A stretch of 64,000 bases of DNA from Aeromicrobium erythreum (GTDB taxonomy: Bacteria; Actinomycetota; Actinomycetes; Propionibacteriales; Nocardioidaceae): positions 3,162,001 to 3,226,000 of the forward strand of contig NZ_CP011502.1 of assembly GCF_001509405.1 (NCBI RefSeq). The letters are read 5' to 3'. The position numbers were made by a program, and so were the translations under genes. Of the stretch, positions 1 to 59,726 are shown one piece after another (within the stretch, counting starts at the first letter, position 1; every line of letters begins with the position of its first letter). The notes under the pieces are model-generated. The model was not told where the DNA came from and did no database searches. It saw only the letters and a list, made by a program, of their open reading frames with translations.

Positions 1-167
1 GGACCGCGAGGATCGCCGCGATGAGGACGCCCGAGCCGACCAGGAGGAACACGTCGAGGTCGTGGACGTCCATGCACCGACCTCCCACCCTCGCCGAGAC
101 CCGATCCTATCGAGCGTCGACCGTGCATCGACCTGCAGGGACGCACGCCGTGCGGTGGGATGGACGG

Positions 168-41804: not shown

Positions 41805-43046
41805 GTGACCACCACCCCGCGCCGGAGCAGCTGGTCCGGCACCGTCCCGTACCACTTCGCCGCCGAGCACCGTCCCGCCGACCTCGACGCGCTGCGCCGC
41901 CTGGTCACGACCACCCCGCGCCTGCGCCCGGTGGGCACCGGCCACACCTTCAACGACGTCGCCGACGGGGCCGAGGCCGTCGCACTGACGGCCTTCGACA
42001 CCGTCGACGTGCTGGACGACGGAGCCGCCGTGCGGGTCGGCGCCGGCCTGACCCACGCACGGCTGGCCGAGGAGCTCGCGCCGCACGGGCTGGCCCTGGC
42101 CAACCTGGCCTCGCTGCCGCACCTGAACGTCGCCGGCGCGGTCGCGACCGCGACGCACGGGTCGGGCACGCGGACCGGCAACCTCGCCACGCAGGTTCGG
42201 GCGGTCGAGCTGGTGCTCACATCTGGCGACGTCGCGACCGTCCGCCGCGGCGACCCGGACTTCGACGGCGTGGTCGTCAACCTCGGCCTCCTCGGCGTGG
42301 TCACGGCGCTCGAGCTCGACGCCGTGCCCGCTGTCGACCACCGCCAGGTGGTGCTCCCCGACGCCGACGTCGCGAGCCTGCCCGACCGGCTCGCCGACCT
42401 GCACCGCCTCGGCCGCAGCGTCAGCGTCTTCACCCGCTGGGACGACGCGCCCAGCCACGTGTGGGTGAAGTGGCGCGACGGCGACCCCGACCCCGCCCCG
42501 GGGTGGGAGACGCTCGGGCTGGCGCCGGCCACGGAGGAGCTGCACCCGATCCCCGGCCTCGACCCGGTGCACTGCACGGCCCAGCAGGGCGTGCCCGGGC
42601 CGTGGGTGGAACGGCTGCCGCACTTCCGGCCGGGGTTCCTGCCGAGCGCGGGCGACGAGGTGCAGTCGGAGTACCACCTGGCGGCCGAGCACGGACCCGC
42701 AGCCGCGCGCGCCCTGCAGGAGGTCGGGCACTTGCTCGACTCCGCCCTGCTGACGTCGGAGATCCGCGCCATCGCGGCGGACGAGCTGTGGCTGAGCCCG
42801 CAGTCGGGGCAGGACACCTGCTCCTTCCACTTCACCTGGACGGCCGACCTCACGCTCTCCTCGGCCGCGGCCCTCGTGGTCGAGCACGCGCTCGCGCCGT
42901 TCGCGCCGCGCCCGCACTGGGGCAAGCACTTCGCGCTCGACGTGCGCGGCCTCTACCCGCGCCTGCCCGACTTCGAGGCGCTGCGCCGACGCCTCGACCC
43001 CGACGGCGTGCTCGCCGGCCCCTGGTACGACCGCGTCCTCGCCTAG
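41805..43046 (+). CDS. FAD-dependent alditol/sugar-lactone oxidase
   Basis: A 413-residue vanillyl-alcohol-oxidase-fold flavoprotein close to alditol oxidase and xylitol oxidase of actinobacteria. His about 47 in [13 protein letters not shown] is the expected covalent FAD-attachment site. [20 protein letters not shown] is the pyrophosphate-binding loop, and [10 protein letters not shown] is the C-terminal signature of the D-arabinono-lactone/alditol oxidase family. It oxidises a polyol or lactone with O2, producing H2O2. GTG 41805 has GGAGG 10 nt upstream. Its promoter region contains the arabinose-type operators, so it is probably part of the same pentose regulon. Confidence 0.9.
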
Positions 43047-43061
43047 CCCGACAGCTGGAGA

Positions 43062-43134
43062 GTCCCCACGATCCGGAACCTGGTCGTCCTTTCTCGCGCC
43101 CGCAACGGGCGATGGGGTTCCGGATCGTGGGGAC
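43062..43134. repeat. 19 bp perfect inverted repeat between alditol oxidase and upp
   Basis: GTCCCCACGATCCGGAACC (43062-43080) and GGTTCCGGATCGTGGGGAC (43116-43134) are perfectly complementary, with a 35 nt interior that contains a smaller GCCCG-CAA-CGGGC hairpin. It begins 15 bp after the oxidase stop codon and ends 28 bp before the upp start, so it may be a terminator for the first gene or a small repeat element. Confidence 0.85.
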
Positions 43135-43162
43135 GGACGGCGCTGGCACTAGGCTCGACGTC

Positions 43163-43804
43163 ATGCACGTCCACGTCGCCGACCACCCGCTCGTCTCCCA
43201 CAAGCTCACGGTGCTGCGCGACGCGTCCACCGACTCCCCCACGTTCCGTCGGCTCGCGGACGAGCTGGTGACGCTGCTGGCCTACGAGGCCACGCGCGAC
43301 GTCCGCGTCGAGACGGTGCAGGTGATGACGCCGGTCGCCCAGGCGCAGGGCGTCCGGCTCGCCGACCCGCGCCCGCTCGTCGTGCCGATCCTGCGCGCGG
43401 GCCTGGGCATGCTCGAGGGCATGCAGCGACTGCTGCCCACGGCCGAGGTCGGCTTCCTCGGGATGGTGCGCAACGAGGCGACGCTCGAGGCCGACACCTA
43501 CGCCGAGCGGCTGCCCGACGACCTGTCCGGGCGCCAGTGCTACGTGCTCGACCCGATGCTCGCGACCGGCGGCAGCCTCGCCGCCGCCATCCACTTCCTG
43601 GTGAAGCGCGGGGCCGACCACATCACCGCCGTGTGCCTGCTCGCCGCCCCGGAGGGCATCGAGCGGATCGAGCGCGAGATGACGGAGGTCGGCGTGCCCG
43701 TCACCCTCGTCGTCGCCGGTCTCGACGAGCGTCTCGACGAGAACGGCTACATCGTCCCCGGTCTCGGCGACGCCGGCGACCGGCTGTACGGCGTCGCCGA
43801 CTGA
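43163..43804 (+). CDS. upp: uracil phosphoribosyltransferase
   Basis: Converts uracil and PRPP to UMP in pyrimidine salvage. The 213-residue protein begins [20 protein letters not shown] and has [24 protein letters not shown], the PRPP loop [16 protein letters not shown] and the C-terminal [14 protein letters not shown]. It is complete. It is followed 14 bp later by the first of five tandem membrane-protein genes; a 13 bp direct duplication (CGACTGACGTGGC) sits across its stop codon. Confidence 0.96.
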
Positions 43805-43818
43805 CGTGGCCGACTGAC

Positions 43819-44421
43819 GTGGCCGTCACGCAGGAGCTCCGTCCGGGGCCGTGGGGGTGGGCCGAGCGTCGCCGTCGGATCGCGGCGTCCGGTGCGGTGC
43901 TGGCCGTGGCCGTCGGGCTGCTGCTGCTGGCGGGTCGCGGCACGGGCCTGCTGGGCGTGCTGCTGATCGCGGTCCCGACCGTCGTCGTGACGGTGCCCTC
44001 GATCCTGCTCTACGAGCGACTCACATACCAGCGCGAGAGCCTGGTGATCACGGCGCGCACGCTCGAGATGTACCGCGGCGACCGGCTGCTCCACCGCCTC
44101 GACCGCACCGCACCGATCCGGGCCCTGCGGTTCCGGCTGTCGGCGTCGGGTCACCCGTTCGGGCTGCCGAAGCTGCTGCTGCACGACGGTCGTGACCACG
44201 TGCGGCTGGCGAGCGACCGGTGGCTGGTCCGGCACGAGCAGCTCCTCACGGCCCTGGGCGTCGAGGCACCCACCGTCGACCACCGCCAGGCGCAGCAGCT
44301 GGTGCCGGACGCCTTCCCGCTGTGGGAGCGCCGCCCCAACCTCGTCGCGGGGCTCTCGGTGCTCGGCCTGTTGGTCGCGATCGTGGCCGTCCCCGTCGTC
44401 GGGGCGCTCCTCACCGCCTGA
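43819..44421 (+). CDS. tandem membrane-protein family, member 1
   Basis: A 200-residue member of a five-gene paralogous array, family unrecognised. Two N-terminal membrane helices (about 27-47 and 49-70) are followed by a soluble beta-rich domain (SLVITARTLEMYRGDRLLHR, then KLLLHDGRDHVRLASDRW), a Pro-Asp-Ala-Phe motif near 165, and a final helix (about 178-198). The shared core is a strand ending x-DG-x-x-x-x-x-L followed by a Trp. The domain order resembles bacterial PH-domain membrane proteins (inference). GTG 43819 follows the upp stop after 14 bp, so it may be co-transcribed with upp. Confidence 0.72.
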   Translation: MAVTQELRPGPWGWAERRRRIAASGAVLAVAVGLLLLAGRGTGLLGVLLIAVPTVVVTVPSILLYERLTYQRESLVITARTLEMYRGDRLLHRLDRTAPIRALRFRLSASGHPFGLPKLLLHDGRDHVRLASDRWLVRHEQLLTALGVEAPTVDHRQAQQLVPDAFPLWERRPNLVAGLSVLGLLVAIVAVPVVGALLTA

Positions 44422-44483
44422 CCAGCGGGGACGTCCGGCCAATCGGCTGCGGTGACGACCGCGGGCGTGCAAGGGTGTGCGCC

Positions 44484-45143
44484 ATGACCGAGCCGGGTCC
44501 TGACGCGGACGCCACGGCGCTCGTGCTGCGCCCCCTGGGCTGGCGCGAGGCCGACGGCGCGGCGCGGCTGTGGCGGGACCTGCTGGTGCTGGCCGTGCCG
44601 TTGACACCCGGGGTCCTGTGGCTGGCCCTCGCGAGCGAGCAGCACCCGTGGGTCGCAGTCGTGGTGCTGGCGGGCGTGCTGGCGGTGCTCGGGGCGTACG
44701 CGACGGAGCTGCTGATGGTGCGCCACGAGCGAGTCGTCGTCACCGCGAGCACGGTGGAGTGGTGGCGCGGCAAGCGGTTACGTGCCCGTCTCCAACGAGG
44801 TCCGACCCTGCGCGCCGCGCGCTACGTGCCCTGGCCGGTCGGCCGACCTCTGGGTCTCATCCACCTCGCCGTCTCCGACGGGACCACGGGGTTCCGCCTC
44901 GGCGACGCACGGTGGATCGCCCGCTTCGAGGCGATCGCCCTCGCCGCCGAGGTGGCCGCGCCGCGACTGACCCACGACAGGGCCCGACGACGCATGCCGG
45001 AGTGCTTCACCGCCCTCGAGCGACTCCTCGACGCGCTCCGTGCGCAGGGCTGGGCCCGGGTCGCGGTGGGTGTCGTCGTGCTCGTGGCAGCGGGCTTGGT
45101 CGCCGGCTACCTGGTCGGGGCCCTCACGGGCGCAGGGCCATGA
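44484..45143 (+). CDS. tandem membrane-protein family, member 2
   Basis: A 219-residue paralogue. Two membrane helices (about 29-48 and 54-76) precede the soluble domain (RVVVTASTVEWWRGKRLRAR, LIHLAVSDGTTGFRLGDARW), a MPECFTALER motif and a C-terminal helix (about 192-213). The core SDG-x-x-GF-x-L-x-D-x-x-W is well preserved. Its leader (GGGCGTG, AGGGTGT, GCC-ATG) is almost the same as that of member 4, suggesting duplication of a promoter-plus-two-gene block. Its stop overlaps the original start of member 3 (ATGA at 45140-45143). Confidence 0.75.
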   Translation: MTEPGPDADATALVLRPLGWREADGAARLWRDLLVLAVPLTPGVLWLALASEQHPWVAVVVLAGVLAVLGAYATELLMVRHERVVVTASTVEWWRGKRLRARLQRGPTLRAARYVPWPVGRPLGLIHLAVSDGTTGFRLGDARWIARFEAIALAAEVAAPRLTHDRARRRMPECFTALERLLDALRAQGWARVAVGVVVLVAAGLVAGYLVGALTGAGP

Positions 45144-45202
45144 GCGACCTCGACCCCGTCCGTGTCCTGCGCCCCGTGCCCTGGTCGGAGCAGCCGCAGT
45201 AG
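45140..45202 (+). other. orphan 20-codon N-terminus of member 3, ended by in-frame TAG
   Basis: ATG 45140 overlaps the stop of member 2 and encodes MSDLDPVRVLRPVPWSEQPQ, which aligns with the N termini of the paralogues (for example VLRPLGWREADG). A TAG at 45200-45202 then stops it. The following codons (Asp-Ala-Leu-Arg-Gly-Leu) remain in the same frame and continue the family sequence, so member 3 appears split by one nonsense change, most simply CAG to TAG. Confidence 0.75.
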
Positions 45203-45220
45203 GACGCGCTGCGGGGTCTC

Positions 45221-45736
45221 GTGCTCTACCGGTCCCTCCTCGTGCTCTCCCTCCTCGTTCAGTACGTCATCCACCGCGAGCCCCGACCGGTGCTCGCACT
45301 CCTCGTGCTGACGTTGGCGGTGCTGGTCGCCTCTGGCGCGGCGTGGGAGTGGTGGCGGGGGACCCGTGAGCGGCTCGTGCTGATCGACGACACGGTGGAG
45401 CTCGTCCGAGGGCGACGGAGCCGGCCACGGTCCCGCCTGGCCCGCAAGGACCTGTGGGCCGGGCGCTTCTCCCTCTACCGCGGCGATTCGGAAGCGGGAC
45501 CACAGGCCCTGGCGATGTCCGACGGTCGCGACGGGATCCTGCTCACCCACGCCGGCTGGACGCCGAGGTACCCGGAGCTGCTGACGATCCTCGGGGTCTC
45601 CGCTCCGCTCGTGTCAGCCAAGGTCGCCGCCCGGCGTCATCCGGAGGCGTTCGACTGGTCCACCCGTCACCCACTCGCGTTCGCCGTGCTGGTCGTGGTG
45701 CTCGTCGCGATCGTCGTGGCCTTCGCCCTGCGCTGA
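45221..45736 (+). CDS. tandem membrane-protein family, member 3 (interrupted N terminus)
   Basis: From GTG 45221, in the frame of the interrupted start, it encodes 171 residues: one or two helices (LYRSLLVLSLLVQYVIH, VLALLVLTLAVLVASG), the soluble domain (RLVLIDDTVELVRGRRS, ALAMSDGRDGILLTHAGW), HPEAFDWS and a C-terminal helix. The downstream frame is fully intact, so either translation restarts at this GTG, or the TAG is recent, programmed or a sequencing error. If restarted, the first about 27 residues are lost. I keep it as a gene with a question mark; it could equally be called a pseudogene. Confidence 0.6.
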   Translation: MLYRSLLVLSLLVQYVIHREPRPVLALLVLTLAVLVASGAAWEWWRGTRERLVLIDDTVELVRGRRSRPRSRLARKDLWAGRFSLYRGDSEAGPQALAMSDGRDGILLTHAGWTPRYPELLTILGVSAPLVSAKVAARRHPEAFDWSTRHPLAFAVLVVVLVAIVVAFALR

Positions 45737-45787
45737 GCCTCGCGATCCGGCTGACGGGGTGCCGACGGGCGTGGGAGGGTGTCGGCC

Positions 45788-46447
45788 ATGACCGGTCCGA
45801 CGTCGCCGACGCCACCGTGGCCCGTCGAGATCCTCCCCGTGCGCTGGTCGCAGTCCCAGGGCCGCACGCAGGTGGCGCGCGAGCTGCGCTGGAATCTGGT
45901 CGGGGCGCTCGGCTTGGGTGCGGGCGCCCTGGCGAACGTCGACCACGCCCCGGTGCTGGCCGGCCTCGCGGTCGCCCTCGGGCTCGCCGGTCTGGTCGCA
46001 CCGGTGGTCGCCCCGGTCGTGCGCTGGCCCGAACGGGTCGTCGTCGACGAGGAGACGGTCACGCTGTGGCGCCGCGGACGGGTGCGGGGCCGCGTCCGGC
46101 GCGGGGTCGATCTCCGGGCCGTCCGGTACCGCCTCGGACGGGATGACGGCTCCTCGCCCCAGCACCTGGCATTGTCCGACGGTCAGGACGGTTTCCGGCT
46201 CACCGACCCTCGATGGGCTCCGCGGCACCTCGAGCTGGCGGACGTCGCCGGTGTCGACGCGCCGATGTCGGGCGTCACCCTCGTCCGTCGTCAAATGCCC
46301 GAGGCCCTGCCGGTGCTCGACCGGACCTTCGTGGCCTGGGGACGTCCCGAGCTCAGGCGCCGACGTCTCGCAGTGGTCGGCCTGCTCGTCGTCGTCCTCG
46401 TGGCAGTCGCGGTCGTGGTCGCACGCCATCAGGCCGGGGTGCTGTGA
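45788..46447 (+). CDS. tandem membrane-protein family, member 4
   Basis: A 219-residue paralogue beginning MTGPTSPTPPWPVEILPVRW. Helices at about 38-55 and 60-80, soluble domain with RVVVDEETVTLWRRGRVRGR and HLALSDGQDGFRLTDPRW (the clearest form of the family core), MPEALPVLDR, and a C-terminal helix. It shares its leader sequence with member 2 and, like it, is translationally coupled to the next member: its TGA overlaps GTG 46444. Confidence 0.75.
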   Translation: MTGPTSPTPPWPVEILPVRWSQSQGRTQVARELRWNLVGALGLGAGALANVDHAPVLAGLAVALGLAGLVAPVVAPVVRWPERVVVDEETVTLWRRGRVRGRVRRGVDLRAVRYRLGRDDGSSPQHLALSDGQDGFRLTDPRWAPRHLELADVAGVDAPMSGVTLVRRQMPEALPVLDRTFVAWGRPELRRRRLAVVGLLVVVLVAVAVVVARHQAGVL

Positions 46448-47028
46448 GCGACCCCGGACGCGTGGAGATCGCGCCCGCCCCGTGGGACCCCGCGGACCTC
46501 CGCTCCGTGCTGCGGCGGGAGTCCCTCGCGATGGTGCTCCTCCTGGCGTTCCTTCTCGTGGTGTTCAGGCCGGCCCTCGGCGGCGGCTGGTTCGTGCCCA
46601 GTCTCATCGTCCTCGTCCACACGGTGACCACCGTGGTGGAGTACCAGGCGGTACGTACCGAGCGACTGGTCATCGGCCTCGACCGCGTGGAGTACTGGAT
46701 CGGATTCCACCGTCGACGCACCGTCGACCTGCGTAGCGACGTCTGGGTGGTGCTCACGCGCCGCACCCCCGAGAACCCGCGACCGTCCGAGCTCGTCATC
46801 TCCGACGGCCGCCAGGGCTTCCACCTGTCCGACCCTCGATGGCGGACCAGGTTCCCGGCGATCGTCGACGCGATCGGCCGCCCGGCGCAGCAGGCGCCGC
46901 GTCGGCGGGCCTTGCGGCTGGTGCCGGAGGCCTACCCGTGGTTCGAGCGGCCGTCGTGGACCGCCCGGCTGACACAGACCGTGCTCGTGCTGTTCATGCT
47001 CGCCGTCATCGCAGGCGCCATCATCTGA
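46444..47028 (+). CDS. tandem membrane-protein family, member 5
   Basis: A 194-residue paralogue starting at a GTG overlapped by the previous stop (GTGA). Helices at about 30-48 and 51-68, soluble domain with RLVIGLDRVEYWIGFHRR and ELVISDGRQGFHLSDPRW, VPEAYPWFER, and a C-terminal helix (LTQTVLVLFMLAVIAGAII). It is the last member; a 55 bp gap separates it from the MFS exporter. Members 2+3 and 4+5 look like two copies of the same overlapping pair. Confidence 0.75.
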   Translation: MSDPGRVEIAPAPWDPADLRSVLRRESLAMVLLLAFLLVVFRPALGGGWFVPSLIVLVHTVTTVVEYQAVRTERLVIGLDRVEYWIGFHRRRTVDLRSDVWVVLTRRTPENPRPSELVISDGRQGFHLSDPRWRTRFPAIVDAIGRPAQQAPRRRALRLVPEAYPWFERPSWTARLTQTVLVLFMLAVIAGAII

Positions 47029-47083
47029 TCCCACGCCCCACCGTTCGGCTTGCGCCGACCCCGGACTCGGCCACGCTGGTCTG

Positions 47084-48529
47084 GTGAGCGAGGAGCCGGT
47101 CGAGACCCACGAGGACCGACCGACCACCTCGGACGAGCCGAACCCGGCGCGGTGGCGGATCCTCGCGGTCACCCTGGTCGTCGGCTTCATGTCGCTGCTC
47201 GACGTCACCATCGTCAACGTCGCGATCCCCTCGATCCAGAAGGGGCTCGACACGTCGGCCTCGACCGTGCAGTGGGTGGTCTCCGGCTACGCGCTCACGT
47301 TCGGCCTGACCCTCGTGGCGGGCGGACGCCTCGGCGACGCGTACGGCCGCAGACGGCTCATGCTGATCGGCCTGGCCGGGTTCGTCGCCTCGAGCGCCGC
47401 GGTCGGGCTCGCGCCCACCGCCGAGCTGGTCGTCGTCGCCCGACTGCTCCAGGGCGCGTCGGCCGGGCTCCTCACGCCCCAGAGCTCGGGGCTCATCCAG
47501 CAGTTGTTCTCCGGCGCCGAGCGGGGCCGCGCGTTCGGCTACTTCGGCCTCACCGTCTCGCTCGCGTCGGCCACCGGACCGCTCCTCGGCGGTCTCGTCA
47601 TCGGCCTGGTCGGCGAGGAGCTCGGCTGGCGGCTCGTGTTCCTCGTCAACGTGCCGATCGGCGTGGTCGCCGCGATCGCCGTCGCCCGCATGGTCCCCGG
47701 ACGCGAGGACGACAGCACGCCCGGCCGCATCGACACCCTCGGCGCGGCGCTTCTCGGGGTGTCCGTGCTCTGCCTGCTCTACCCGCTCGTCAGCCTCGAG
47801 TCGGGTGCGCGCTGGCCGCTCGGGCTGCTCGTCGGCGTGCCGGTGTTCGCGTGGGCGTTCGTGCGCTGGGAGCACCGCGAGAAGCGACTCGGCCACGACC
47901 CCCTGCTCGACCTCGACCTGCTGCGCCGCCTCCCCGGGTACGGCAACGGGCTGCTCGTCGGCACCGTCTACTTCACCGGGTTCACGGGCGTGTTCCTGGT
48001 CGCGTCGGTGTGGCTGCAGGACGCGCGCGACGTCAGCGCGCTGCACGCCGGGCTGCTCCTGACCCCGTTCGCCCTCGGGTCGGCGATCACGTCCCCGCTC
48101 GCCGGACGGCTGGTCAGCACGGTCGGTCGACCACTCACGGTCATCGCGCTCGGCGTCATGATGGTCGGCGTCCTCGGTGCCGCGCTGGTCGCGCCCGGTC
48201 GCCCCACCGACGACCTCTGGTGGGCGCTCTCCCCGTTCCTGCTGCTGGCCGGTCTCGGCGGCGGCGCCGTCGTGTCGCCGAACATCACGCTGACCCTCCA
48301 GGAGGTGCCGCCGCGGATGGGTGGCGCGGCCGGCGGGGCCCTGCAGACCGGCCAGCGCATCGGCTCCTCGCTCGGCGCGGCACTGCTGGCCACCACCTAC
48401 CAGGTGGTCGCGGGACGCTCCGACGGCGACGCCGGCATCCAGGTCTCGCTGCTCGTCGCGCTCGCCGTCCTGGCCCTCGCCCTCGCGGCGGCAGTGCTCG
48501 CCTGGCGCACCGCCCGACAGCCCCGCTGA
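47084..48529 (+). CDS. MFS transporter, DHA2 (EmrB/QacA) family
   Basis: A 481-residue drug/proton antiporter-type protein with about 14 hydrophobic helices. Motif C-like and A motifs are visible: LLDVTIVNVAIPSIQKGL in helix 1, WVVSGYALTFGLTLVAGGRLGDAYGRRR between helices 2 and 3, and GGAAGGALQTGQRIGSSLGAAL late. The exported compound is unknown and there is no linked regulator. GTG 47084 gives the usual short cytoplasmic N terminus. Confidence 0.92.
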   Translation: MSEEPVETHEDRPTTSDEPNPARWRILAVTLVVGFMSLLDVTIVNVAIPSIQKGLDTSASTVQWVVSGYALTFGLTLVAGGRLGDAYGRRRLMLIGLAGFVASSAAVGLAPTAELVVVARLLQGASAGLLTPQSSGLIQQLFSGAERGRAFGYFGLTVSLASATGPLLGGLVIGLVGEELGWRLVFLVNVPIGVVAAIAVARMVPGREDDSTPGRIDTLGAALLGVSVLCLLYPLVSLESGARWPLGLLVGVPVFAWAFVRWEHREKRLGHDPLLDLDLLRRLPGYGNGLLVGTVYFTGFTGVFLVASVWLQDARDVSALHAGLLLTPFALGSAITSPLAGRLVSTVGRPLTVIALGVMMVGVLGAALVAPGRPTDDLWWALSPFLLLAGLGGGAVVSPNITLTLQEVPPRMGGAAGGALQTGQRIGSSLGAALLATTYQVVAGRSDGDAGIQVSLLVALAVLALALAAAVLAWRTARQPR

Positions 48530-49635: not shown

Positions 49636-49956
49636 TCAGGCGGCGTGCTTGCAGGTGCTGCAGGTGCAGTCGCTGCACACGCAGTTGGCGCAGCTGTCGG
49701 AGCAGTGCGCGCAGGAGCAGACGTTGTGGTTGCAGGTCGCGCACGTGCAGTCGGTGCAGGTGCAGGTCGCACAGCTGTCGCTGCAGTGAGCACAGGAACA
49801 GGTGGCGCACTCGTCGTAGTGGCCGTCGTGCTCACGGTGCACGTGGCCGTCGTGGAGGTAGTCGACGTGGTCCTCGTGGACGACGGCGTCGTGGCCGCAG
49901 CCCGGGCCGTGCGTGTGGTCGTGCTTCTCGGCCTCGCGGTGGTCGATGACGGTCAT
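49636..49956 (-). CDS. His-rich/Cys-rich metallothionein-like fusion protein
   Basis: A 106-residue probable metal-sequestering protein. Residues 1 to about 49 are rich in His, Asp and Glu (HDHTHGPGCGHDAV, HEDHVDYLHDGHVHREHDGH) and match the small zinc-associated HGPGCGH proteins of actinobacteria. Residues about 50-106 contain 19 Cys in C-x-C and C-x2-C spacing and consist of two near-repeats (CATCSCAHCSDSC... and VCSCAHCSDSCANC...). Its ATG overlaps the ArsR-type repressor stop (ATGA at 49953-49956), so metal-dependent expression is likely. The fusion of the two halves in one chain is unusual. Confidence 0.85.
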   Translation of the reverse strand: MTVIDHREAEKHDHTHGPGCGHDAVVHEDHVDYLHDGHVHREHDGHYDECATCSCAHCSDSCATCTCTDCTCATCNHNVCSCAHCSDSCANCVCSDCTCSTCKHAA

Positions 49957-58571: not shown

Positions 58572-58913
58572 TCAGCGGAACACCTGCACGACGTCGATCG
58601 TGCCGACGATGTGCTCGTTCAGCCCGGCGAGGTCCTCGGCAGGTATCCAGTACTCCAGGATGGTGTCGCCACCCGCCTGCTGGACGTCGTACGCGTCGAG
58701 GAACGACGTCTCGACCTCGAAGCGCGTCACGTAGCCCACACCACTCGCCGGCACGTTCCAGTCGCGCGCGATCCGCACGGCGTAGTCCTCGTTCAGGACG
58801 GGGTAGAAGATCGGCTGGTCGGGCAGCCGCGGCGGCCACGCGCGCCACCCCGATGCCTCGACCAGCGCGAGCTCCTGCGGCCCGGTCGGCCGCCAGAGCG
58901 TCGTCGAGTCCAT
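58572..58913 (-). CDS. small ADP-ribosylation/crystallin-J1-annotated protein
   Basis: A 113-residue soluble protein of the type starting STTLWRPTGPQELALVEASGWRAWPPRLPDQPIFYPVLN, with DYAVRIARDWN and GYVTRFEVETSFL, ending AGLNEHIVGTIDVVQVF. I recall these being labelled ADP-ribosylation/crystallin J1 proteins, but no catalytic residue can be assigned. It lies 66 bp upstream of the SUFU gene on the same strand, so it could belong to the same unit. Confidence 0.78.
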   Translation of the reverse strand: MDSTTLWRPTGPQELALVEASGWRAWPPRLPDQPIFYPVLNEDYAVRIARDWNVPASGVGYVTRFEVETSFLDAYDVQQAGGDTILEYWIPAEDLAGLNEHIVGTIDVVQVFR

Positions 58914-59030: not shown

Positions 59031-59726
59031 TCACCCACCGAACCGCTGACGATCCAAGCTCTTGAAGTAGCCCTTTCGCAGCGCGCGCTCGGCGCTGTCC
59101 TTCGACGTCGAGAAGAAGCCGCGCTCGGACGCCGACAAGCCTGAGGTCTCGATCTTTCGCCGGAGCATTGAGAGCGTGCAGCACAGGTCGGCTGCCTGGA
59201 ACAGGCTGTAGTCGGCCGGGATCACCTTGCGCACCTCGACACTCAGGTGAGCGTTGAAGACGCTGTTGACAAGATTCGTGATCTCCTTCTGACCATTGTC
59301 GTAGTAGATGACGATGCGCTCCCACGAGCTGAAGAACTCGTAGCTCGACCGGATCAGCTCACCGAGCTCACGTGACATCGCGCTGACGAGCCGATCTGTG
59401 TCACCCAGCTCGCGTTTGCTGAACACCCACGAGTGGTGCGTGACCTCGGACGTCCTGACGAAGTCGACGAGCACGCGGAAGATCGAACGGCGGGACGGCA
59501 TGTCGAGCAGTCGATAGTCCTGCTCCCGGCGCACGAGGGGACCGGTGTGGATCGCATGGTCTGCCGGCAAGCCACGCGCCACCAGGGCGTCGCGGATCTT
59601 CTCCAGGTGCTGCGCGATGTCGTCGCTCTGATCATGGAAGACGAGGCTCAGCACGTAGAAAGGCGAGTGCTTCTCGAATGGGCCGAAGTCGCCGGACTCG
59701 TCGACGAAGATGCTTAGCTCGCGCAC
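59031..59726 (-). CDS. DUF3800 domain protein (RNase-H-like)
   Basis: A 231-residue protein with the DUF3800 signature: FVDESGDFG near residue 8 (acidic, RNase-H-like metal residues), HSPFYVLSLVFHD, and the C-terminal YSLFQAADLCCTLSMLRRK. The family is common on mobile elements and in defence islands, and its biochemical activity is unproven. GC content and codon use are lower than in neighbours (many A/T third positions), consistent with transfer. Upstream are two strong hairpins; no partner gene is adjacent. Confidence 0.85.
   Translation of the reverse strand: MRELSIFVDESGDFGPFEKHSPFYVLSLVFHDQSDDIAQHLEKIRDALVARGLPADHAIHTGPLVRREQDYRLLDMPSRRSIFRVLVDFVRTSEVTHHSWVFSKRELGDTDRLVSAMSRELGELIRSSYEFFSSWERIVIYYDNGQKEITNLVNSVFNAHLSVEVRKVIPADYSLFQAADLCCTLSMLRRKIETSGLSASERGFFSTSKDSAERALRKGYFKSLDRQRFGG

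Follow-up and report, generated by a model that had tools for sequence, protein, structure and literature searches.

The window analysed here, a 64,000-nt stretch of Aeromicrobium erythreum (NZ_CP011502.1) to which all coordinates refer, carries five tandem genes (M1 to M5) located between upp and a gene for a transporter of the major facilitator superfamily (MFS). The best reading is that they encode a family of the kind of the membrane-anchored bacterial pleckstrin homology (PH)-like proteins, for which the libraries searched hold no model. Tentatively, and as a proposal that falls somewhat short of probable, the five are taken to be membrane PH-like barrel proteins of an array that grows and shrinks, the paralogues forming complexes that protect or monitor the cell envelope. 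Genomes and loci are labelled with G and L numbers, respectively.

A reading of the sequence alone had described five tandem paralogues, and this was borne out. The five frames lie on the + strand, are homologous (31-43% pairwise protein identity) and all have coding-like GC contents at the three codon positions (0.72-0.84, 0.48-0.55 and 0.86-0.94). A search of the host's own 3.63-Mb genome with M4 found exactly five places at E up to 10, each with an E value of 1.8e-8 or lower. The same reading had grouped M2 with M3 and M4 with M5 as overlapping pairs. Both pairs do overlap by 4 nt, but M2 and M3 are not simply an intact pair, because M3 contains a TAG at codon 21 (45200-45202) and the frame from its overlapping ATG ends after 20 codons; the frame from the in-frame GTG downstream of the TAG is without the N-terminal strand described below. 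The stop codon of upp is 14 nt from the GTG of M1 and no leaderless -10 box was seen by eye before M1, so M1 is probably co-read with upp. The junction of these two genes (43799-43824) also contains a 13-bp tandem repeat (GACTGACGTGGCC twice), which is present as a single copy in G026.

Table 1 Features of the five-gene array and its flanks.
Feature	Coordinates	Strand	Remarks
M1, PH-like membrane protein, 200 aa	43819-44421	+	GTG start; 192/200 identical to its one-to-one relative in G026
Leader of M2	44440-44483	+	leaderless-type -10-like box AAGGGT ending 7 nt before the ATG
M2, PH-like membrane protein, 219 aa	44484-45143	+	mosaic relative to its G026 counterpart
M3, copy with in-frame TAG	45140-45736	+	open frame from GTG 45221, 171 aa
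Leader of M4	45744-45787	+	leaderless-type -10-like box GAGGGT ending 7 nt before the ATG
M4, PH-like membrane protein, 219 aa	45788-46447	+	open reading frame
M5, PH-like membrane protein, 194 aa	46444-47028	+	GTG start overlaps the M4 stop
upp (uracil phosphoribosyltransferase), left flank	43163-43804	+	Pfam UPRTase E 5.2e-66 over 43178-43801; start codon is the likeliest of several candidates
MFS transporter, right flank	47084-48529	+	Pfam MFS_1 E 4e-54

The family had been called undescribed, and no model in the libraries searched covers it. None of M1-M5 reaches a cut-off in Pfam or NCBIfam, and PADLOC and PHROGs gave weak matches only (M5: PDC-M02A, E 0.017; phrog_10709, E 0.0075), which were not used as evidence. 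Nothing in Rfam reached the gathering score within 43000-47500. The family profile matched three PDB sequences at E 0.64-0.96, none of them meaningful, and a literature search of open-licence papers, conducted mainly by listing, found no description of the family or its arrays.

AlphaFold2 models were obtained for M1, from the window proteins only, and for M2, from 15 sequences (five from the window and ten from Jiangella), with a mean predicted local distance difference test score of 77.9 and 83.8, respectively. The two models agree in consisting of a short strand, a transmembrane (TM) hairpin, six strands, a helix, linker helices and a third TM helix. The strand that precedes the hairpin is at residues 5-7 in M1 and 13-15 in M2, and the helix that follows the barrel is at 133-146 and 142-154, respectively, such that the order of elements is that of the PH superfold, seven strands and then a helix (residues 5-146 in M1 and 13-154 in M2). 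A PH-like fold, suggested earlier from the letters, is thus what both models predict, and the Foldseek and VIA searches returned mostly PH-type domains by title, each match being weak; the titles include dynamin, FACT subunits, SCAB1, Btk and the bacterial structures 3b77 and 3hsa, with DUOX1 and Nox2 also among the matches. The fold alignments span approximately the region from the pre-hairpin strand to the post-barrel helix (e.g. model residues 1..148 or 9..157). As they begin at about that strand, it is likely to take the place of β1, which in the models would put the TM hairpin within the β1-β2 loop.

Eukaryotic PH domains are characterised by a Trp in the C-terminal helix, their hallmark residue. 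The sole invariant column in an alignment of 22 sequences is the Trp that opens the post-barrel helix (W135 of M1); the Jiangella copies have W, Y or F at the equivalent place. A second conserved stretch, a P followed by six residues and usually E-R, precedes the third helix. The motifs proposed as common to all five proteins are less uniform. M2, M4 and M5 carry SDG-x-x-GF-x-L-x-D-x-x-W exactly, and M1 (HDGRDHVRLASDRW) and M3 (SDGRDGILLTHAGW) carry it in degenerate form, while PE[AC][FLY] fits M2, M3, M4 and M5 but not M1, which has PDAF. Likewise, two N-terminal helices and a final helix are present in the models of M1 and M2, and a simple hydropathy scan detected three segments in each of the first three members; in M4 and M5 it detected two, one N-terminal helix being below the threshold. 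Positive charges are found before TM1 and after TM2, with few in the hairpin turn or, in the short members, after TM3. This distribution favours a topology, again predicted, in which the N-terminus and the barrel are inside and the C-terminus is outside.

The closest analogues are YdbS/YdbT and DdE/DdF, which also combine TM helices with PH-like domains and are encoded by adjacent paired genes; they have roles in envelope defence or peptide export. The neighbouring pair ydbST of Bacillus belongs to the σW envelope-stress regulon (PMC3498285) and protects against amylocyclicin (PMC8144471), and export of the bacteriocin enterocin DD14 depends on the PH proteins DdE and DdF (PMC8657885). The window family differs from YdbS/YdbT in having a third helix after the barrel, in its higher tandem copy number and in having no match to bPH_2 (PF03703), none of M1-M5 matching this Pfam model at E up to 10.

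Three further families resemble the window proteins in part. DUF2244 (PF10003) has two N-terminal helices and a domain proposed in PMC2817789 to be a bacterial PH domain (PHb); M1 matched it at E 0.0077 (16.4 bits, cut-off 27) and the other four window members did not match. According to the same paper, DUF2244, DUF304 and DUF1200 are linked to bacterial PH domains, the domain is predicted to be inside the cell, and the membrane PHb proteins are proposed to oligomerise through it, forming transporters or pores. Like the window family, bPH_6 (PF10756) has, by eye, an N-terminal '-RP-' stretch, two hydrophobic stretches and PH-like strands; unlike it, bPH_6 ends after the helix, without a third TM segment. 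It is found as a single copy in each of 9 of the 10 genus genomes searched. Profile-profile probabilities for bPH_6 were 61% with a broad family profile and 35% and 1.5% with two narrower ones, and at the Pfam level (22-bit cut-off) no window member matched and one Jiangella copy reached 12.2 bits. Weak matches to bPH_10 (YqeB-like, PF23494), covering part of the hairpin and strands, were seen in relatives: the third copy in L066 (E 0.0018), L077 (0.0043) and L089 (0.029), the best at 18.1 bits against a 27-bit cut-off. No window member matched the bPH_10 Pfam model. None of 60 phylum genomes had a bPH_10 match over the cut-off, and the genes at the loci of three sub-threshold matches in these genomes read as unrelated.

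The array differs between closely related species. The host upp is 99% identical to that of G026, 97% to that of G039, 95% to that of G018 and 94% to that of G033; the gene is present in 44 of the 49 genus genomes, counting the host. G026 keeps M1 and M2, followed by an 8-codon stretch that starts like M5 and then by the sequence that follows the M5 stop codon. Between upp and the MFS gene, all that G039 has is a stretch resembling the M4 end and the M5 start; G018 has 48 nt with no recognisable trace of the array, and G033 has two other genes. On these sequences, the simplest reading is that the array predates the split of the host, G026 and G039 and was later deleted piecemeal, leaving short scars.

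M2 has a mosaic structure. Its identity to G026 is 98.7% over the first 75 nt, 66.7% over the following 300 nt and 85.1% over the remainder, with rates of synonymous substitution (dS) of 0.05, 0.92 and 0.38, respectively. This uneven pattern points to recombination with a diverged allele; no donor of the diverged segment was found. Gene conversion of M2 by M4 was rejected, the M2 genes of the host and G026 being closer to each other than to M4 in all five segments. The ratio of non-synonymous to synonymous rates (dN/dS, host against G026) is 0.31 for both M1 and M2, indicating purifying selection.

These data bear on whether the array in the host is a decaying relic, in which the useful copies are being lost and the remainder do little. 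The earlier reading had named decaying pseudogenes as what would contradict it, and this applies in part, to M3, with its internal stop, and to the scars in two sister species. The internal TAG, the 8-codon scar of G026, the M4/M5 remnant of G039, the mere 48 nt of G018 and one truncated copy in a Jiangella array are all as a relic would leave them. Against this, four of the five frames are intact and of coding-type composition, M1 and M2 are kept in G026 with the constraint given above, the promoter-like leaders of M2 and M4 are alike, and other genera keep arrays at a fixed place. We consider a relic unlikely.

The likeness of the M2 and M4 leaders, also noted earlier, is real. The 23 nt before the start codons are identical at 18 positions and the 40 nt at 28, values that were reached by none of 23,220 control pairs (all those among 216 other leaders of the host genome); over 15, 20 and 30 nt the M2/M4 value was reached by 102, 5 and 4 of these pairs, respectively. 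The likeness is part of a 52-nt repeat (44444-44495 and 45748-45799, 73% identical) that runs into the coding region. The AGGGT part alone is generic, because it sits at about the position where leaderless genes of the host keep the -10 box; both boxes are without the first T. Among genes preceded by a gap of at least 30 nt (L096-L115), 56 of 216 have a TANNNT ending 6-7 nt ahead of the start codon, compared with none of the 80 whose gap is shorter than 10 nt; this indicates that leaderless transcription is widespread in the host.

From the common leader it had been concluded that duplication took in a whole pair and its promoter. M2 and M4 are indeed the closest pair (43% protein identity), and in the larger tree M4 groups as sister to the M2 genes of the host and G026 (80/88). 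The other half of the proposal fares less well: M3 and M5 are 34% identical, below M3 and M4 at 39%, and the trees split M3, M4 and M5 without support, neither M3+M5 (p-AU 0.471) nor M3+M4 (0.444) being favoured or rejected. In the smaller tree M2+M4 is also unsupported (40/26), and the program warns of long branches meeting. Duplication of M2+M3 to give M4+M5 is thus neither shown nor rejected.

Relatives occur in the genus and across the class. A seven-sequence profile matched 4 of the 49 genus genomes, host included, at E 0.01, with five copies in the host, two in G026 and one each in G020 and G033. In the large genome searches at most 7-9 candidates were scored per genome, so the counts are lower bounds: with broader profiles, at least 9 of 341 genomes matched at the family level, at least 16 of 391 at the order level, all 16 within the same family, and at least 53 of 393 at the class level, 41 of these with an E value no higher than 1e-10. 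Class-search matches weaker than approximately 1e-4 to 1e-5 were taken as noise, including a weak one to a sixth place in the host's own genome (C1:3446231-3446560). A search of named genomes with M4 alone gave 88 pattern-matching stretches, none of which encodes a relative; the sequence diverges fast. The searches for relatives are transitive, and the end points were also compared directly, the window-type profile matching the Jiangella-type profile with a probability of 94.4 and E 8.5e-8 over 161 columns. Closely similar members at L080, L081 and L082 (about 1490-2150) cross two genera (G171 and G160, against G048), with tree branches of 0.02-0.10 and a patchy distribution; this likeness may reflect horizontal transfer. 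Elsewhere, three copies lie in tandem in G100 and a single one in G101, in both cases adjoining a gene that was read, unscanned, as gatB-like, and G018 holds one long-form relative away from upp.

In the family of the class that holds Jiangella (f50), 24 loci were read in 20 genomes of Jiangella and further genera. Histidine kinase, response regulator, topoisomerase and MucB/RseB genes were identified by Pfam in L149 only and by similarity to L149 in the others; in L149 the gene divergent from the response regulator scored 23.4 bits for MucB/RseB against a cut-off of 22.3. A histidine kinase, genes of the window family and a gyrA/parC-type gene occur together in 16 of the 24 loci, with a response regulator in 14 of the 16 and a MucB/RseB-like gene in 15. 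The copy number at this kinase-gyrA/parC place is 5, 4, 4, 3, 3 and 2 in L149-L154, 3, 4, 2, 2, 2, 2 and 1 in L188-L194, and 1 each in L201, L203 and L204; in L188 and L190 the kinase and the members are separated by another gene. The remaining loci are a contig-edge locus that has the gyrA/parC-type gene only (L195) and seven solo genes elsewhere (L162, L196-L200 and L202). In Jiangella ureilytica a truncated copy with an internal deletion lies beside an intact one (L167, 6627-6986; L194, 3567-3926, where it is between the kinase and the intact member); L167 and L194 appear to be the same contig.

This context raises the alternative of an accessory function in two-component systems, sensory or regulatory, in which the membrane PH protein would bind the histidine kinase and tune its signal, the paralogues giving different inputs. 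In 13 of the 24 loci no other called gene separates the kinase from the members, and in several the distance is 9-11 nt. Seven long, two-domain members (L077, L089, L093, L078, L079, L090 and L065) carry 138-166 extra residues after the third helix, predicted to be outside; two Cys align across the whole set, and these members are possible sensor forms. No kinase gene adjoins the window array, however, a kinase is missing from eight of the 24 loci, including one that lies at a contig end, and the genes could merely belong to the regulon. We judge a role as kinase partners unlikely.

Still less probable, and in our view very unlikely, is an accessory function in secretion or export machinery, for instance in type VII secretion or peptide export. 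The single copy in G020 lies in a type VII secretion locus among WXG100, T7SS-signal, FHA/FtsK-type and protein-kinase genes (by Pfam), the gene order in G007 is the same by eye, and a need for DdE and DdF in bacteriocin export is consistent with it (PMC8657885). By contrast, no secretion gene was recognised beside members at the other loci read (by eye, no profile), G018 and G039 have the MFS gene without the array, and the window array itself lies between upp and that transporter gene and not among type VII components.

The proposal that we prefer, an envelope role for assembled PH-like membrane proteins, can be set out as follows. Each of the five would be a small protein of the inner membrane with a PH-like barrel as its core, the N-terminus lying inside and forming β1, the TM hairpin being inserted between β1 and β2, and strands β2-β7 with the helix completing a cytoplasmic barrel; the conserved stretch would then lead into the third helix, which ends outside. 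The family would expand and contract by birth and death, through tandem duplication, deletion and recombination, and the paralogues would assemble, with themselves or with each other, through their PH-like domains into membrane complexes. Like the two-helix PH proteins YdbS/YdbT in Bacillus, such complexes may protect the envelope against membrane-active compounds or monitor it. By analogy, a role in envelope defence may thus apply to the family; it is suggested by YdbS/YdbT and DdE/DdF and by the kinase-linked arrays with their MucB/RseB-like neighbour. The earlier suggestion of sensing or envelope stress as the outcome of the expansion stands in part, since the local expansion is real and the context of distant relatives points there.

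Several observations weigh against this proposal. The neighbours of the window array, upp and the MFS gene, give no hint of envelope stress, and the kinase-linked Jiangella-type copies are distant, with 18-22% identity to M2. The fold matches are weak: the best Foldseek E values are 0.017-0.019, with none below 0.001, the best VIA Z scores (7.1 and 7.5) are under the value of 8 advised for the tool, and the top VIA match for M2 is DUOX1 (Z 7.5, root-mean-square deviation 7.1). M3 is interrupted, the array is absent from this place in G039 and G018 and so is dispensable (the long-form relative of G018 lying elsewhere), and M1 and M2 are less constrained than upp (dN/dS 0.12) and the MFS gene (0.05). 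We know of no measured function for any member of the family. Direct binding of membrane lipids by soluble PHb domains is also argued against in PMC2817789.

Two other features of the window were recorded. A gene at 49636-49956 on the - strand, conserved in G018, G026 and G039, encodes a 106-aa metallothionein-like protein, the C-terminal half of which consists of C-x-C and C-x-x-C repeats; the gene overlaps one for a putative ArsR-type regulator and is beside a CobW-type GTPase (CobW by Pfam). At 58572-58913 on the - strand is a called frame of 113 aa with no Pfam match, near a DUF3800 protein at 59031-59726.

Membrane PH-like proteins are widespread in bacteria, and a role is known for few of them. 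Arrays that vary in copy number at fixed places, such as that between upp and the MFS gene with 5, 2 or 0 copies in the host and its sister species and that next to a kinase gene with 1-5 copies in Jiangella and its relatives, are a natural experiment in the function of these proteins. The β1-β2 loop is a lipid-binding site in many eukaryotic PH domains. A bolder form of the proposal, which we regard as rather doubtful, is that the family has a distinct PH architecture in which a TM hairpin replaces this loop, and that its arrays encode interchangeable subunits of mixed membrane rings, reshuffled in each species for envelope defence. If the hairpin architecture is correct, the barrel would be stitched into the membrane; if the rings are mixed, each species would have its own envelope-defence repertoire, generated by duplication, deletion and recombination. 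According to PMC2817789, alignments suggest that membrane PHb families lack β1. If the pre-hairpin strand is β1, that remark would need correction for the present family at least, in which β1 would have been hidden ahead of the helices.

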